Shown piece after piece: positions 58,001 through 64,000 of a stretch of 64,000 bases of DNA. Source of the stretch: Gemmatimonadota bacterium (GTDB lineage Bacteria > Gemmatimonadota > Gemmatimonadetes > Gemmatimonadales > GWC2-71-9); contig JAOTVV010000007.1 in the NCBI GenBank assembly GCA_029863245.1, positions 1 to 64,000 on the forward strand. Reading direction: 5' to 3'. Positions within the stretch are counted from its first letter, which is position 1, and each line of letters opens with the position of its first letter. A program made the position numbers and the translations under genes. The notes beneath the pieces are model-generated. The model searched no databases. It was not told the DNA's origin and saw nothing but the letters and a program-made list of their open reading frames with translations.

Positions 58001-60028
58001 CTACCACCGTTCGGCGAGTCCCCGCGCTACATGATCGGCCACAGCCATGATCGTGATCATCGGGTTCACGCCGCTCGACGTGGGAAACGTACTGCCGTCG
58101 GCGACATAGAGATCCCGAACTTCATGGGTTTCGCCCAACTCGCTCAGCACCGACCGCCTGGGATCGGCACCGATCCGGGCACTCCCCATCTGGTGGAACG
58201 AAATGTAGGACATTCGACACCGACGGTAGCCCACCCGATCGGCTGCCTCTCGAAAGCCGTCCCGCCATCCGGGCGCTCCGGTTTTCACACGGACGGGCGG
58301 GGTCTGCAACGTCAGCAAGTCTGTGGCACCCGACTCCACCAACACCTCCGCCGAGGCGAGAAACGCCCGCCGCAGGTGGGCCACGTCATAGTCGGACAGC
58401 TCGTAGTGCACCTGTGGCAGTCCGCGGCGTGACACGCGCACCTGCCCGGGATCGCGATCGCGGAGCAGAACGCCAACCAGGCTCATGTGCCCGAGACGGG
58501 AAATGTCGTCACGGTACCGGCGCCCCCCGTCCCATCCGAAGGCGCTGCCCACGAGGGCAAAGTGGGCCGGTGCGGTCTCGAATTTCGCCCCATAGCCGCC
58601 GTCGAGATCGGCGAACTGATCCGAGTAGCGGGTCTGCAGTGCGCCCGACCACGGCTCCACTCGTTCCGGGAAGACGCCGAGCAGGGCCGTCGCGGGGTGG
58701 AGCCTGAGCCACCGCCCGATGTTCGGGTTGGAGAGACCGGAGCGGATGAGCAGCACGGGCGTGTAGATGGCACCGGCAGCGACCACGACCGCCCGTGCGC
58801 GTACGGTCACGCGGTGCACACCACCGGCCTCGTCACGTCCGTTCCCCACGACCCCGACCGCCCGGCCGGCCTCGACCAGCACACGATCGACTTCACAATT
58901 GGCCACGAGTCTGGCCCCTCGGGCAATTGCATCCGGGAGATAGGTCTTCGCAGTCGAGTTCTTGGTTCCGTGACGACAGCCGTACCCGCAATACCCGCAC
59001 TCCAGCCCCTCTGGGCAATCGGTCACGTTGCGCGGCATGAGGTCCACGTGCCAGCCCAGCGCACGGCACCCGCGCTCGAGGATCTGGTCCCGTACCCCAG
59101 GCGTTGTCCACCGCGTGCCGACATCGAGCCGGGCACTCACGCGGTCGAGGCTCTCCGTGAATCGGCGCGACGAGAACAGCGACAACCCCGAGATCCGGTC
59201 CCACTCGCTCCGCGTCACCTCGGGTAGCGGGAAGCTCGTAGTGTAATTGATGGTGGTTCCGCCACCGACACAGCTGCCCGCGAGGATCGGCATCGAGCCG
59301 CTTTTCGTCATGAGGAGCCCACCGTCAAGATAGAGCGACCCCAGCATGTCCCCCTCGATCTGCGTGAGGTCCCTCGAGCTGGGATTCGGGCCTCGTTCCA
59401 CCACGACGACGTCGAGCCCGGCTTCGGCGAGGACGCCCGCCACCACTCCACCACCCGCGCCCGACCCGATCACCACTACCTCGCAGTCGATCGACGCGGT
59501 GTCCGCCACCGGCACTTCGGGGAGTGCGGCAATCACGTTCGGCGGAGGCGGCAAGGGACCCGGATGCCCCACTACCCGCCAGGCCGGATGCGATCCGCCG
59601 TCGACCGGCCAGGCGAGATACGCGACGTGAGTCAGTCGCTTCAGTGCCTGGAACCCGGCGCGCCGGAGTGCGATGCGGGAATCCGACCAACCAGCGAGCA
59701 CGGTCTCTCGAGCCTCGCGACCGAGATCCGTGAACCGGGCAAAGCGCCCGGAGAGCGCGAGGTTCACGAGCCGCGAGTCCAAGGCGGACAAGAGCAGCCG
59801 CAGCTGTCGGCGATCGGCTGGAGCGCGAATGGTCCCGATAAGCTGCTCGACCCGCTCGGCCGTTCCCACCAGCGCCGCGCCGGTCGCATAGAAGTCGTGC
59901 GGGTCGTCAGGGACGCTGAGACACGGGAGCAGCGTGTCACAGACGGCTGCGAGCACCCGTCGCTCGCGGTTCGAGAGAACGGGCAGGCTCTGATCGGTGT
60001 GCATTATCGGGGAAATGTCGCGCGCCAT
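58001..60028 (-). CDS. GMC oxidoreductase with N-terminal gluconate-2-dehydrogenase-subunit-3-like domain
   Basis: 675 residues from ATG 60028; TTG 60043 and ATG 60004 are alternatives, none with a Shine-Dalgarno. Residues about 15-145 resemble the gluconate 2-dehydrogenase small subunit (SNRERRVLAAVCDTLLPCLS). The FAD-binding GMC domain starts at VVVIGSGAGGGVVAGVLAEA, with SCVGGGTTINYTTSFPLP. The active-site His is in SYISFHQMGSARIG, and the family end is VADGSTFPTSSGVNPMITIM. The cluster CPEGLECGYCGYGCRHGTK is shared with bacterial long-chain-alcohol-oxidase-like members. It oxidises an alcohol; substrate unknown. Confidence 0.85.
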   Translation of the reverse strand: MARDISPIMHTDQSLPVLSNRERRVLAAVCDTLLPCLSVPDDPHDFYATGAALVGTAERVEQLIGTIRAPADRRQLRLLLSALDSRLVNLALSGRFARFTDLGREARETVLAGWSDSRIALRRAGFQALKRLTHVAYLAWPVDGGSHPAWRVVGHPGPLPPPPNVIAALPEVPVADTASIDCEVVVIGSGAGGGVVAGVLAEAGLDVVVVERGPNPSSRDLTQIEGDMLGSLYLDGGLLMTKSGSMPILAGSCVGGGTTINYTTSFPLPEVTRSEWDRISGLSLFSSRRFTESLDRVSARLDVGTRWTTPGVRDQILERGCRALGWHVDLMPRNVTDCPEGLECGYCGYGCRHGTKNSTAKTYLPDAIARGARLVANCEVDRVLVEAGRAVGVVGNGRDEAGGVHRVTVRARAVVVAAGAIYTPVLLIRSGLSNPNIGRWLRLHPATALLGVFPERVEPWSGALQTRYSDQFADLDGGYGAKFETAPAHFALVGSAFGWDGGRRYRDDISRLGHMSLVGVLLRDRDPGQVRVSRRGLPQVHYELSDYDVAHLRRAFLASAEVLVESGATDLLTLQTPPVRVKTGAPGWRDGFREAADRVGYRRCRMSYISFHQMGSARIGADPRRSVLSELGETHEVRDLYVADGSTFPTSSGVNPMITIMAVADHVARGLAERW

Positions 60029-60128
60029 CTGGGCACGTGGCAAGCGGGCGCCCGAGCGAGGAGTCGGTCGCTCGGTCCAAGCCGTTTTTCAGTCGGAGTC
60101 GTTTTGGTCCGCTCACCCACGAAGCGCG

Positions 60129-60305
60129 TCACGAGGGCACGATGAAACTCGTGTCCTCCTTCTCGTCCTGTTCCAGCTCCTGAAGCAGGTAGTTGACCGT
60201 CTGCTCCACCAGGCCCTCGATTGGCACGTCCTGACGGCGCGCCTCGCACTGATAGGCATGGTAGGCATCATCGCTCAGCTCGGCCCACACGTGCACCTTC
60301 TTCAT
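60129..60305 (-). CDS. 58-aa ribbon-helix-helix-like protein
   Basis: ATG 60305, with GGGAGG 6 nt upstream, to TGA 60129. Starts MKKVHVWAELSDDAYHAYQC, continues EARRQDVPIEGLVEQTVNYL and LQELEQDEKED. One strand followed by two helices and an acidic tail match the CopG/Arc ribbon-helix-helix layout, which binds DNA as a dimer. It sits between the DUF35 gene (29 nt upstream) and the GMC oxidoreductase, all on the minus strand. It could autoregulate this operon or be an antitoxin, but no toxin gene is adjacent. Confidence 0.7.
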   Translation of the reverse strand: MKKVHVWAELSDDAYHAYQCEARRQDVPIEGLVEQTVNYLLQELEQDEKEDTSFIVPS

Positions 60306-60334
60306 GATTGGCCTCCCACTCTGAGTCCCGTCCC

Positions 60335-60727
60335 CTATTCCACCGGAACGGCCTTGTGGCCGTAGCAGAGGATCCCACCGTGATCCTCCTTGCGAATCAG
60401 CCGAAACTCCAGCGTGACCTCCATTCCGGGTAGGACCTCGGAGGGATCACAGTCTGCCACCTGCACCATCAGCCGAACGCCCTCTTCGGTCTCCACAACA
60501 GCCATGGCGTAGGGAGCCTCCATCTGCAGGTCCGTCGGCGCAACGTGCACCACGGTCGACGTGACCACCCGTCCTCGATGAGCAAGGCGGGTTGCCTCGA
60601 ACTCCACCCCGCCACACTGAGGGCAGACCTGTCGTTTCGGGTAGATCACCCGCTTACACCCTCGACAGGCTGCAGCCTCCAGTCGGTAGCGACTCGGGAT
60701 CTCCCGCCAGTACCTGGGACTCGGCAT
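60335..60727 (-). CDS. Zn-ribbon / OB-fold (DUF35) protein
   Basis: 130 residues. An N-terminal helix leads into a rubredoxin-like zinc ribbon (Cys21, Cys24 in AACRGCKRV; Cys35, Cys38 in VCPQCGG). An OB fold follows (RGRVVTSTVVHVAPTDLQME and EVTLEFRLIRKEDHGGILCY). DUF35 proteins bind acyl-CoA and bridge thiolase and HMG-CoA synthase in the archaeal complex, and serve as subunits of steroid-degrading thiolases and hydratases. ATG 60727 comes 3 nt after the thiolase stop, so the two are co-translated. Confidence 0.9.
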   Translation of the reverse strand: MPSPRYWREIPSRYRLEAAACRGCKRVIYPKRQVCPQCGGVEFEATRLAHRGRVVTSTVVHVAPTDLQMEAPYAMAVVETEEGVRLMVQVADCDPSEVLPGMEVTLEFRLIRKEDHGGILCYGHKAVPVE

Positions 60728-60730
60728 GGC

Positions 60731-61879
60731 TCATACCCTCTCGAAAATGTGAACGACCGAGCTCGCGCCCGACCCTCCCATGTTCTGCGCGAGGCCGATG
60801 GTGGCATCGGGTACCTGCCGCTCCCCCGCCTCCCCGCGAAGCTGCTCAACGATCTCGATTGCCTGCGCCACGCCGGTAGCGCCCACGGGGTGTCCCTTCG
60901 ACTTGAGACCACCACTCGTGTTGATGGGAATGCGGCCCCCCAGCGCCGTCTCGCCCGCACGCGTCAGCTCACCCGCCGACCCGCGTTCCGTGAAGCAGAG
61001 CGCCTCGAGCACGCAGAGCTCGGCAATGGAGAAGCAGTCGTGGACCTCCGCCACCTGGATGTCCGAGGGTGTCACGCCACCGGACTTGTAGGCTCGGCCG
61101 GCGGCCAAGCTCACCGCGTCGAGGAACGTTGGGTCCGCCCGGTCGGCGAGCGCCATCGGTGCCGTCGCCAGCCCACTGGACCGAATACGGATCGGCGCGT
61201 CCGTGAACTCCCGTGCCCGCTCCAGCGGACACAGGAGGACCACCGCCGCCCCGTCGCTCACCGGTGAGCAATGCAGGAGCCGCAATGGCTCGGCCACCAT
61301 AGAGGACGTCATGACCTGCTCCGCCGTCACCTCGCTCCGGAACTGCGCCTTGGGATTCCGGGCGCCGTGCCGGTGGTTCTTCACCGAGACAGCCGCGAGA
61401 TCCTCCTCCGTGGTCCCGTACCGGGCCATGTGTGCGCGCGCGATCATCGCATAAAGGCCCGGGAAGGTGATCCCGTGGTACACCTCCGTCTCCTGGTCCG
61501 CCGCGGATGCCAGCACGTTCGTCACGTCAGCCCCGTCGTTCATCTTCTCGACCCCAGCCACGAGCACGAGGTCACTCGCCCCCGCAGCAACGTCCAGGAA
61601 CCCGCACCGAAGCGCCACGCCACCGGATGCGCACGCCGATTCGACTCGCGTCGCCGGCACCCCTGCCAGGCCGAGATGGTCCGCCATCAGCGGACCCAGA
61701 TGTTCCTGACCGACGAACTGCCCGCCGGACATGTTTCCTACATAGATCGCGTCGACCGAGGGCGACCCCACCGCCATCAACGCCTCTCGCGCAGCCTGCA
61801 CGAACAGGTCGCGCAGCCCACTCTGCCACAGCTCACCGAACGGTGTCATACCGGTCGAGATGATTGCGACGTCTCGCAT
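60731..61879 (-). CDS. Thiolase (archaeal acetoacetyl-CoA thiolase / SCP2-type)
   Basis: 382 residues. The nucleophile is Cys83 in [33 protein letters not shown] and the catalytic His in [14 protein letters not shown] follow. The second catalytic Cys of classical thiolases (CxG near the C-terminus) is not evident: the end reads [15 protein letters not shown], as in the archaeal/SCP2 group that works with a DUF35 partner. It condenses two acetyl-CoA to acetoacetyl-CoA, or the reverse. ATG 61879; its gene lies 28 nt after HMG-CoA synthase. Confidence 0.9.
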
Positions 61880-61907
61880 GGTCCGTTACCCCGTTCTCCT
61901 CGGTCTG

Positions 61908-62954
61908 TCAGGCGTTCAGAATGATCTTCTCGCGGTACTTCGCGTACTCGCCATAGGTCAGGTACCGGCGACGGCCTTCCAACATGGATCGGACCGTCGG
62001 TGCTCGCGTACGCCGATCCGCCAGGAGATCGGTGGCCCGCAACACGAACGAATCGCTCCCGGCGCCCGACCCGAACGACGTGATGAGTATCAAATCGTCG
62101 GCCTCGGCCTCATCGAGGATGGCCGCGAGGCCGGTCGGCGACGATCCAGAATAGGTGTTGCCCATCGTCGGTACGATCCATCCCACCTCGAGTTGCTCGC
62201 GCGTGAAGCCGAGCTGCTTCCCGACGGCCAGCGGGAACTTGCCATTCGGCATGTGGAACACCGCGTAGCGGAACGCAGCCGGTTCGAGTCCCGTCTTGTC
62301 GAGAATGGCACGTGTGGCAGCCGTGACGTGTCGGAAGTACGCCGGTTCGCCGGTGAATCGGCCCCCGTGCCGAGGATAGAACTCGCCTTCGCGTCGCCAG
62401 AAGTCCGGTGTGTCGCTGGTGTAGCTATACGTCTCGACCACATCGGCCAGGACATGTTGCCGCCCGAACAGAAAGGCGGCACCACCGGCCGAGGCCGAGT
62501 ACTCCAGGGCATCGTTGGGGGCCCCCTGCGAGGTGTCGGCTCCGATCCCCATCGCATATTCGACGCGACCGGACTCGACCAGACCGAAGGCCACGAACAT
62601 GGCTTCCGTGCCCGCTTTGCAGGCAAACTCGAAATCGGCGATATGCACCTCGGGTCCGATGCCGAGCGCTTCGGCCACCACGGTACCGCTAGGCTTGACC
62701 GCATAGGGATGCGATTCGGAACCGATGTATAGCGCGCCGACCCGCTGGGGATCGACGCCGGCGCGCTCGAGGGCCGCGCGACCAGCGGCAACCGAGATCG
62801 TGATCGTATCTTCGTCGAGGCCGGGAACGGACTTCTCTTCGAGGAGCAGGCCCCGGCGGATCGCAGCTGGGTCCTTTCCCCACTGCTTGGCAATCTCCTC
62901 AGCCGTGACACGATTACGCGGGATGAACGCCCCGTAACCCACGATGCCAGCCAT
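61908..62954 (-). CDS. Hydroxymethylglutaryl-CoA synthase, archaeal type
   Basis: 348 residues. Condenses acetyl-CoA with acetoacetyl-CoA to HMG-CoA. Catalytic residues line up with archaeal enzymes: Glu80 in YIGSESHPYAVKPSG, Cys112 in FEFACKAGTEAM, His234 in AVFHMPNGKFP. The glycine-rich C-terminus is TMGNTYSGSSPTGLAAIL and LITSFGSGAGSDSFVL. ATG 62954 is chosen (GGAGG about 9 nt upstream) because it gives the family N-terminus AGIVGYGAFIPRNRV. Neighbours are thiolase and DUF35, the partners of the archaeal complex. A role in another beta-branching or ketide condensation cannot be excluded. Confidence 0.88.
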   Translation of the reverse strand: MAGIVGYGAFIPRNRVTAEEIAKQWGKDPAAIRRGLLLEEKSVPGLDEDTITISVAAGRAALERAGVDPQRVGALYIGSESHPYAVKPSGTVVAEALGIGPEVHIADFEFACKAGTEAMFVAFGLVESGRVEYAMGIGADTSQGAPNDALEYSASAGGAAFLFGRQHVLADVVETYSYTSDTPDFWRREGEFYPRHGGRFTGEPAYFRHVTAATRAILDKTGLEPAAFRYAVFHMPNGKFPLAVGKQLGFTREQLEVGWIVPTMGNTYSGSSPTGLAAILDEAEADDLILITSFGSGAGSDSFVLRATDLLADRRTRAPTVRSMLEGRRRYLTYGEYAKYREKIILNA

Positions 62955-63152
62955 GTGCCTTCGCCTCCGGTGCAGAAGAGCGGGGACAAGAGCCATCGAC
63001 TTTCTATTAAGGAGGAGACGAGCGTGAAGAGGCGATGAAAGTGGCCTTAAGCGCGAGCCAACGCAGTATCGATGTCCAACCTGCACCGACGGCGGGGAGG
63101 CGCCGGGGGGAATTAGCCGATAGAAACCGTCAGCTTTCGAGTCGCTCCGGGA

Positions 63153-64000
63153 TCACCCGGGCACCCGCCACACGGTATCCAGCACCGTGCCGTCCACCCA
63201 CTTCACCACGGCCACCGGCTCGTCGCTGAGAGTCGGCTTTTCCGGTGGCCCACCCAGAATCCGCTCGACATCGTCCTTGATCGCTTCGATCGGCCGAAAC
63301 GGGAGATCGGAACCGCGCAGGCGATCGAGCAGGTCCTGCCGCCGCGGGTTGATCGCGATGCCCCGCTCCGTGACCACGACGTCGATGAGATCGCTGGGAC
63401 CGGTGATGGTGGTCACCTCGTCGACGATCACGGGGATGCGATCGCGGAAGGACGGAAGCGCGAGGATTGTGCATCCCGCCGTGAGGCAGTTCTGCCACCC
63501 CCCAATCCCGTGGAGCAGCAGGCCGTCGGAGTGCGTGACCACGTTGGCGTTGAAACCGATGTCGACCTCAGTGGCGCCGAGAACCACCGCGTCCACCATC
63601 GAGGCGAAGTTCCCCTTACCGTGGTAGTTGTAGGACGTGAACGGGGACGTCGGCACGTGCCGCGGATCGCTGGCGATCGACCTGACGCCGGCGAGGTCGA
63701 AGGTCTGACCGTCGAGGATGTAATCCGTGAGGCCGGCCCGAAGCAGATCGACGAGGTACGTGGTGGAGCCACCGCGAACGAACCGCGCCCGGACACCGGC
63801 CTGCTGCATCATCTCCTTGAGATACTGCACGAACGCGAGCGCGATGCCCCCGGCCCCAGCCTGAAACGAGAAGCCGGGACGCATGATTCCCGAATCGCGG
63901 AGCAACCGAGCCACATATTCCGCGATGAGCAAGCGATCGGGGCTGCGGGTGATCTCCGTGGTCCCGGACACGATCTTCGACGGGTCACCGACCGAGTCCA
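63153..64000 (-). CDS. citF: Citrate lyase alpha subunit (citrate CoA-transferase), 5' partial
   Basis: The gene runs off the right edge; 281 codons are visible, about the C-terminal half of a ~510-residue protein. The visible part begins DSVGDPSKIVSGTTEIT, a conserved CitF motif, followed by GFSFQAGAGGIALAFVQYLK. It ends IKDDVERILGGPPEKPTLSD ... VKWVDGTVLDTVWRV, typical of the family. CitF exchanges acetyl for citryl on the acyl carrier subunit or CoA before CitE cleaves citrate to acetyl-CoA and oxaloacetate. CitE and CitD are not in the window. A 198-nt gap separates it from HMG-CoA synthase on the same strand. Confidence 0.82.
   Translation of the reverse strand, partial: DSVGDPSKIVSGTTEITRSPDRLLIAEYVARLLRDSGIMRPGFSFQAGAGGIALAFVQYLKEMMQQAGVRARFVRGGSTTYLVDLLRAGLTDYILDGQTFDLAGVRSIASDPRHVPTSPFTSYNYHGKGNFASMVDAVVLGATEVDIGFNANVVTHSDGLLLHGIGGWQNCLTAGCTILALPSFRDRIPVIVDEVTTITGPSDLIDVVVTERGIAINPRRQDLLDRLRGSDLPFRPIEAIKDDVERILGGPPEKPTLSDEPVAVVKWVDGTVLDTVWRVPG

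Follow-up and report, generated by a model that had tools for sequence, protein, structure and literature searches.

We analysed a 64,000-nucleotide stretch of DNA (the window), which is bases 1-64000 of contig C53 (128,207 bases) in the genome of a Gemmatimonadales bacterium (3.68 Mb, 93.9% complete). The closest named relatives of this bacterium are Gemmatimonadota metagenome-assembled genomes (MAGs). On its minus strand the window encodes a 3-hydroxy-3-methylglutaryl-CoA (HMG-CoA) synthase (HMGCS), a thiolase and a DUF35 protein in consecutive genes, and this module is the subject of the present report. The gene order on this strand is citF, HMGCS, thiolase, DUF35, a ribbon-helix-helix (RHH)-like gene and a GMC oxidoreductase gene, and the intergenic gaps in this order are 198, 28, 3, 29 and 85 nt (Table 1). 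Because the 198-nt gap exceeds the others, a single citF-HMGCS transcript is not implied; a promoter and terminator scan of the locus found nothing for or against one.

Table 1 Features of the HMGCS locus (positions are those of the window)
Feature	Position	Strand	Characteristics
HMG-CoA synthase (HMGCS)	61908..62954	-	348 aa; E80, C112, H234; TIGR00748 508 bits; 430 bits to 6ESQ_I
Thiolase partner, acetoacetyl-CoA thiolase type	60731..61879	-	382 aa; Cys83 nucleophile; NF004720 522 bits; 362 bits to 6ESQ_A
DUF35 / ChsH2-type zinc-ribbon + OB-fold scaffold protein	60335..60727	-	130 aa; PF12172 and PF01796 over cut-off; 92 bits to 6ESQ_E
RHH-like small protein, fourth module gene kept in Gemmatimonadales	60129..60305	-	58 aa; after DUF35 in 12/14 modules
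citF (citrate lyase alpha), 3' part	63153..64000	-	PF04223 242 bits in window part, 434 for gene; adjoins module
GMC oxidoreductase with Gluconate_2-dh3 domain	58001..60043	-	neighbour only, outside module

The module and its counterpart in methanogens

The HMGCS scores 155 bits above the cut-off (353) of TIGR00748, the equivalog model for archaeal HMG-CoA synthase, and its Glu80, Cys112 and His234 are invariant across 92 homologues (84 bacterial and 8 outside). The thiolase exceeds the cut-off of the subfamily model NF004720 (420 bits); its Cys83 is conserved, and the second cysteine near the C-terminus is missing, as it is from 6ESQ_A. In the DUF35 protein, both ChsH2 domains score over their cut-offs, and the zinc-ribbon cysteines are at positions 21, 24, 35 and 38. 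Among solved structures, the best match of each protein is the corresponding subunit of the methanogen (Methanothermococcus) complex 6ESQ. The original prediction, made from the DNA alone, had named the three HMGCS residues exactly, and had also given the unusual thiolase, the four cysteines, the 28- and 3-nt spacings and the likeness to the methanogen set as we find them. A KAS III identity of the HMGCS, which that prediction had suggested checking by phylogeny, was ruled out by the equivalog score together with the tree, in which the protein groups with archaeal HMGCS. The archaeal complex is described in a passage of PMC12329534, citing Vogeli et al. 2018, as channelling via a shared CoA site. 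Judged by sequence, the window genes are a bacterial branch of the thiolase/DUF35/HMGCS complex, and their products probably assemble in the same way. Elsewhere in the same genome, contig C67 (L004:8532-10133) carries a second thiolase-DUF35 pair without HMGCS, the thiolase of which is 40% identical.

In 14 Gemmatimonadales genomes, with HMGCS 80-86% identical, HMGCS, thiolase and DUF35 form a unit that stands by itself, and the position of the thiolase gene downstream of HMGCS is conserved in relatives. The RHH-like gene, which follows DUF35 in 12 of these 14 modules, is part of the module. A Pfam search with its product gave no match; the AlphaFold model (pLDDT 75) has an extended N-terminus and then two helices, which is consistent with, rather than proof of, an RHH fold. 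The GMC oxidoreductase gene lies beside the module in none of the relatives examined. Of the two downstream genes that had been suggested as possible members of the same pathway, the RHH-like gene is retained and the GMC oxidoreductase gene is not.

Distribution, gene neighbourhoods and proposed function

A scan of 84,980 species genomes gave 80 HMGCS loci (74 bacterial and 6 archaeal), and 70 bacterial genomes were tested further. In a maximum-likelihood tree, built by a quick method with a midpoint root and with archaeal sampling limited to the nearest sequences, a well-supported branch (98) separates 84 bacterial HMGCS, that of the window among them, from the rest. This bacteria-only clade spans many phyla. 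Outside it are the archaea and divergent second copies (L058 and L059) from two Gemmatimonadales genomes, G008 and G019. These copies belong to further HMGCS-thiolase-DUF35 sets, about 50% identical to that of the window, which group with archaea; because both genomes have HMG-CoA reductase (HMGR), the sets seem to be genuine mevalonate genes of archaeal type within this order.

In 30 of the 70 bacterial genomes, genes for the beta subunit of 3-methylcrotonyl-CoA carboxylase (MCC), a hydratase, biotin carboxylase (BC), biotin carboxyl carrier protein (BCCP) and/or acyl-CoA dehydrogenase (ACAD) adjoin the module. Clustering of the neighbours gave a recurrent operon, HMGCS-THL-DUF35-MCCb-ECH-BC-BCCP(-ACAD), where THL is the thiolase and ECH the hydratase. 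It was found in Aminicenantes, Zixibacteria, Coatesbacteria, WOR-3/Stahlbacteria, Cloacimonadota, Bacteroidota, Planctomycetes and Myxococcota. With 741 bits to Pseudomonas aeruginosa MCC beta and 278 bits to propionyl-CoA carboxylase (PCC), the carboxyltransferase of the operon is MCC beta, and the nearest model to the hydratase is gamma-carboxygeranoyl-CoA hydratase, a LiuC relative. A full-score HMG-CoA lyase is absent from 28 of the 30 linked genomes (one of the 28, G168, carries the lyase in two fragments), and HMGR is likewise absent from 28. The genomes with neither include the closed chromosomes L072, L083 and L090 (single-chromosome assemblies CP070686, CP070742 and CP070825). Among the other 40 bacterial genomes, 27-30 have MCC beta and 7 have an HMG-CoA lyase over the cut-off; none of the six archaea has MCC beta. 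Further neighbours of the module are catabolic. At L072, methionine gamma-lyase is encoded there together with methylmalonyl-CoA mutase and epimerase, an alanine-dehydrogenase-like protein and a CoA-transferase. Gemmatimonadales of genus g20 carry, in divergent orientation to the module, genes for an ADP-forming acyl-CoA synthetase and a VorB/VorA-type 2-oxoacid:ferredoxin oxidoreductase, and the same two kinds of enzyme adjoin the module at L047, L049 and L063.

We propose that the complex, in its bacterial branch, has left mevalonate synthesis and now completes leucine/isovaleryl-CoA catabolism, where it would stand in place of HMG-CoA lyase, and we judge the chance that this is right to be about even. 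Because the operons have ATP-driven MCC and neither HMGR nor HMG-CoA lyase, a complex that consumes HMG-CoA is the simplest reading. Oxidation of branched-chain 2-oxoacids by VorAB-type enzymes would give isovaleryl-CoA, which the acyl-CoA dehydrogenase would convert to 3-methylcrotonyl-CoA; the biotin-dependent MCC would then form 3-methylglutaconyl-CoA, and the LiuC-type hydratase would form HMG-CoA. HMGCS would act in reverse on HMG-CoA and CoA to give acetoacetyl-CoA and acetyl-CoA. The acetoacetyl-CoA would pass to the thiolase via the shared CoA site, which DUF35 would hold, and be cleaved there, so that each HMG-CoA would yield three acetyl-CoA in total. The lyase that is replaced would yield free acetoacetate, which would need reactivation at the cost of one thioester. 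Leucine/isovaleryl-CoA catabolism is the best-supported context of the module, and was not among the functions originally suggested.

The mevalonate pathway is routinely inferred from the presence of HMGCS. If the above idea is correct, most archaeal-type HMGCS genes in bacteria point to the catabolism of amino acids, and annotation and the inferred use of mevalonate in many uncultured phyla need correcting. Moreover, a channelling complex would be making backward use of an enzyme thought to be irreversible, and the proposal would supply the last step of leucine oxidation that is missing from many uncultured bacteria. More tentatively, and with somewhat less than even confidence, we suggest that this is a widespread and undescribed variant of bacterial leucine/isovalerate catabolism in at least eight phyla, mostly of uncultured lineages, in which the channelled reverse reaction replaces HMG-CoA lyase and gains one extra thioester per leucine. 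In the open-licence literature searched, neither this catabolic route nor isovaleryl-CoA synthesis is described for these bacteria.

Several points weigh against the leucine proposal. The synthesis direction of HMGCS is strongly favourable owing to thioester hydrolysis. Therefore, reverse flux would need a very low acetyl-CoA/CoA ratio, or MCC would have to drive it strongly, although the thiolase step would pull in the catabolic direction. Thermodynamically, the direction is the weak point of the proposal, and no biochemical precedent for reverse HMGCS flux was found in the open-licence literature. HMG-CoA lyase is also carried by 9 of the 70 bacterial genomes, and some module-bearing Gemmatimonadales (G035, G055 and G110) have it too. 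Furthermore, the absence calls come mostly from incomplete MAGs. We also considered whether HMGCS and HMG-CoA lyase exclude each other within Gemmatimonadales; no such pattern was found, and five genomes hold both at some level.

In the window genome itself, the leucine link is indirect. No HMG-CoA lyase was found in this genome (best score, 25.7 bits; cut-off, 246). VorB (over its subfamily cut-off) and VorA are encoded on the same contig, 13 kb from HMGCS. Directly before VorB there is a 46-aa C-terminal remnant of the ADP-forming acyl-CoA synthetase (C53:76310-76447; L225:1311-1448), and in the relatives of genus g20 the whole synthetase gene stands at that place. Because VorAB is preceded by this remnant on the same contig, the neighbourhood resembles that in g20 after a rearrangement. 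Contig C73 encodes an MCC-like carboxyltransferase (374 bits to MCC, 285 bits to PCC), AtuA, a hydratase and methylmalonyl-CoA mutase, and in the relative G096 (L050) a homologous hydratase-AtuA-carboxylase cluster directly adjoins the HMGCS module. From this resemblance we infer that the C73 cluster may feed the module in the window genome. However, a canonical MCC beta is missing from the window genome: the best score there is 414 bits, against 886 bits in G053 and 850-1090 bits in genomes of other phyla. Nearly all Gemmatimonadales have a carboxylase of the MCC-like class, and most of these genomes lack both HMGCS and HMG-CoA lyase. Because this class is common where both are absent, the C73 cluster need not feed the module. 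A 943-aa protein of this cluster, considered as a fused biotin carboxylase, turned out to be a subtilase. AtuA (PF07287) is encoded repeatedly near HMGCS or near MCC-like carboxylase and hydratase genes (L196:530-3042, L050:11863-14343, L068, L074, L075, L116, L124 and L127). Since most Gemmatimonadales have the MCC-like carboxylase with neither of the two HMG-CoA enzymes, AtuA may be another replacement for HMG-CoA lyase.

Other explanations for the use of HMG-CoA

The main rival to the leucine proposal runs the other way, and we consider it unlikely. The complex would make HMG-CoA from acetyl-CoA, and dehydration, decarboxylation (by MCC or another enzyme in reverse) and reduction would lead to isovaleryl-CoA for the de novo formation of iso-branched fatty acids, much as myxobacteria do by their alternative isovaleryl-CoA pathway. 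HMGCS would then run in its energetically easy direction, the neighbouring hydratase, carboxylase and acyl-CoA dehydrogenase could run backwards, and the absence of HMGR fits this scheme as well. However, MCC-type biotin carboxylases normally hydrolyse ATP and carboxylate, and the genes around the module are catabolic, encoding methionine gamma-lyase, methylmalonyl-CoA mutase, ADP-forming acyl-CoA synthetase and VorB.

A use of the HMG-CoA for some other product, or in a pathway tied to citrate lyase and particular to certain Gemmatimonadales, is rather improbable. citF extends past the window to about C53:64721 (full product, 522 aa) and is the last gene of a cluster (C53:63153-70687; L003:3153-10687) with the order x184-PrpD/MmgE-aconitase family-isocitrate/homoisocitrate dehydrogenase family-CitD/CitE fusion-CitF. 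The aconitase is of the homoaconitase type. Candidate roles of the cluster include the reductive half of the TCA cycle and methylcitrate metabolism. With CitF, CitE (275 bits) and a CitD-type domain fused to the N-terminus of CitE, the alpha, beta and gamma components are all present; all score below the NCBIfam equivalog cut-offs (CitF 477 versus 501, CitE 275 versus 443). CitG, CitX and CitC were not recognised near the cluster, and no genome search was made for them. The cluster is conserved in G000, G019, G045, G058 and L064 (in G045, from the aconitase C-terminus onward within the stretch read). citF adjoins HMGCS in the window genome, at L064 (with divergent transcription) and in G058, where Ns join two contigs whose ends carry the two parts of citF, the 3' part standing directly before HMGCS. 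The apparent split of citF in G019 and G058 was rejected as a gene break and attributed to these N-gap scaffold joins. Of the 151 genomes searched, four have citF, and each of the four is also one of the 15 genomes whose HMGCS reaches the TIGR00748 level. If kinship is ignored, the chance of this is about 7e-5, so there is some association between the two genes. Two of these four genomes share a genus, however, and 11 of the 15 HMGCS genomes of the order have no citF. In G019 and G045 citF is unlinked to HMGCS, the orientation at L064 differs, and among the 80 scan loci only L064 has citF near HMGCS. The linkage, the conservation of which the original prediction had proposed to check, is local (three genomes), and a citrate-lyase-coupled role is not supported as the main function. 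Citrate lyase cleaves citrate, by way of an acyl carrier, into oxaloacetate and acetate. Because it releases acetate, it does not supply acetyl-CoA, contrary to what had been supposed. At L054 (G110), the region upstream of the module (L054:56-5212) encodes an isocitrate-dehydrogenase family protein, an HMG-CoA-lyase-like protein (262 bits) and large and small subunits of the aconitase family, so that a different C-C lyase stands beside the same kinds of enzyme as in the citrate lyase cluster of the window.

A role at the start of the mevalonate pathway for isoprenoids, as in archaea and as one of the uses first suggested for this locus, is very improbable and is largely refuted for the window genome. 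The gene set equals that of the methanogen complex, and HMGR occurs in 8 of the 70 bacterial clade genomes (in one of them weakly) and in a few close relatives. However, a PF00368 search of the window genome, at 94% completeness, found no HMGR, and IspH of the methylerythritol phosphate route is present over the cut-off. Moreover, 62 of the 70 bacteria have no HMGR, versus all six archaea with it. Archaeal-type mevalonate genes are reported from some Chloroflexota (2026 review, PMC13001223), a case that differs from that of the window. We give the least credence to a related acyltransferase (C-acylation like that of PhlABC) in place of an HMG-CoA enzyme: PhlA, PhlB and PhlC are among the next-best solved relatives, but the scores (430 versus 193 bits) favour HMGCS, the equivalog cut-off is passed and all three catalytic residues are kept.

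Comparison with known systems

The module shares with the archaeal complex 6ESQ all three subunits, the catalytic residues and the zinc-ribbon cysteines. It differs in that its host is a bacterium without HMGR, in that the bacterial clade lies among amino-acid catabolism genes, and in the 58-aa RHH-like gene added in Gemmatimonadales. The Friedel-Crafts acylase PhlABC (5M3K) has the same three-subunit thiolase-fold/DUF35 architecture; its sequence similarity to the window proteins is much lower and its chemistry is different. In myxobacteria, an alternative isovaleryl-CoA pathway with MvaS and AibA/B/C is biosynthetic. Like the route proposed here, it ties HMG-CoA to isovaleryl-CoA in bacteria. 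However, its HMGCS is of another family without a thiolase/DUF35 partner, and the AibAB decarboxylase takes the place that MCC has in the module operons. The liu operon of leucine catabolism encodes isovaleryl-CoA dehydrogenase, MCC, LiuC and the HMG-CoA lyase LiuE. Its MCC beta, biotin carboxylase/BCCP, LiuC-like hydratase and acyl-CoA dehydrogenase have counterparts beside the module in the 30 linked genomes, and, in place of the full-score lyase that 28 of them lack, these operons contain HMGCS-thiolase-DUF35.

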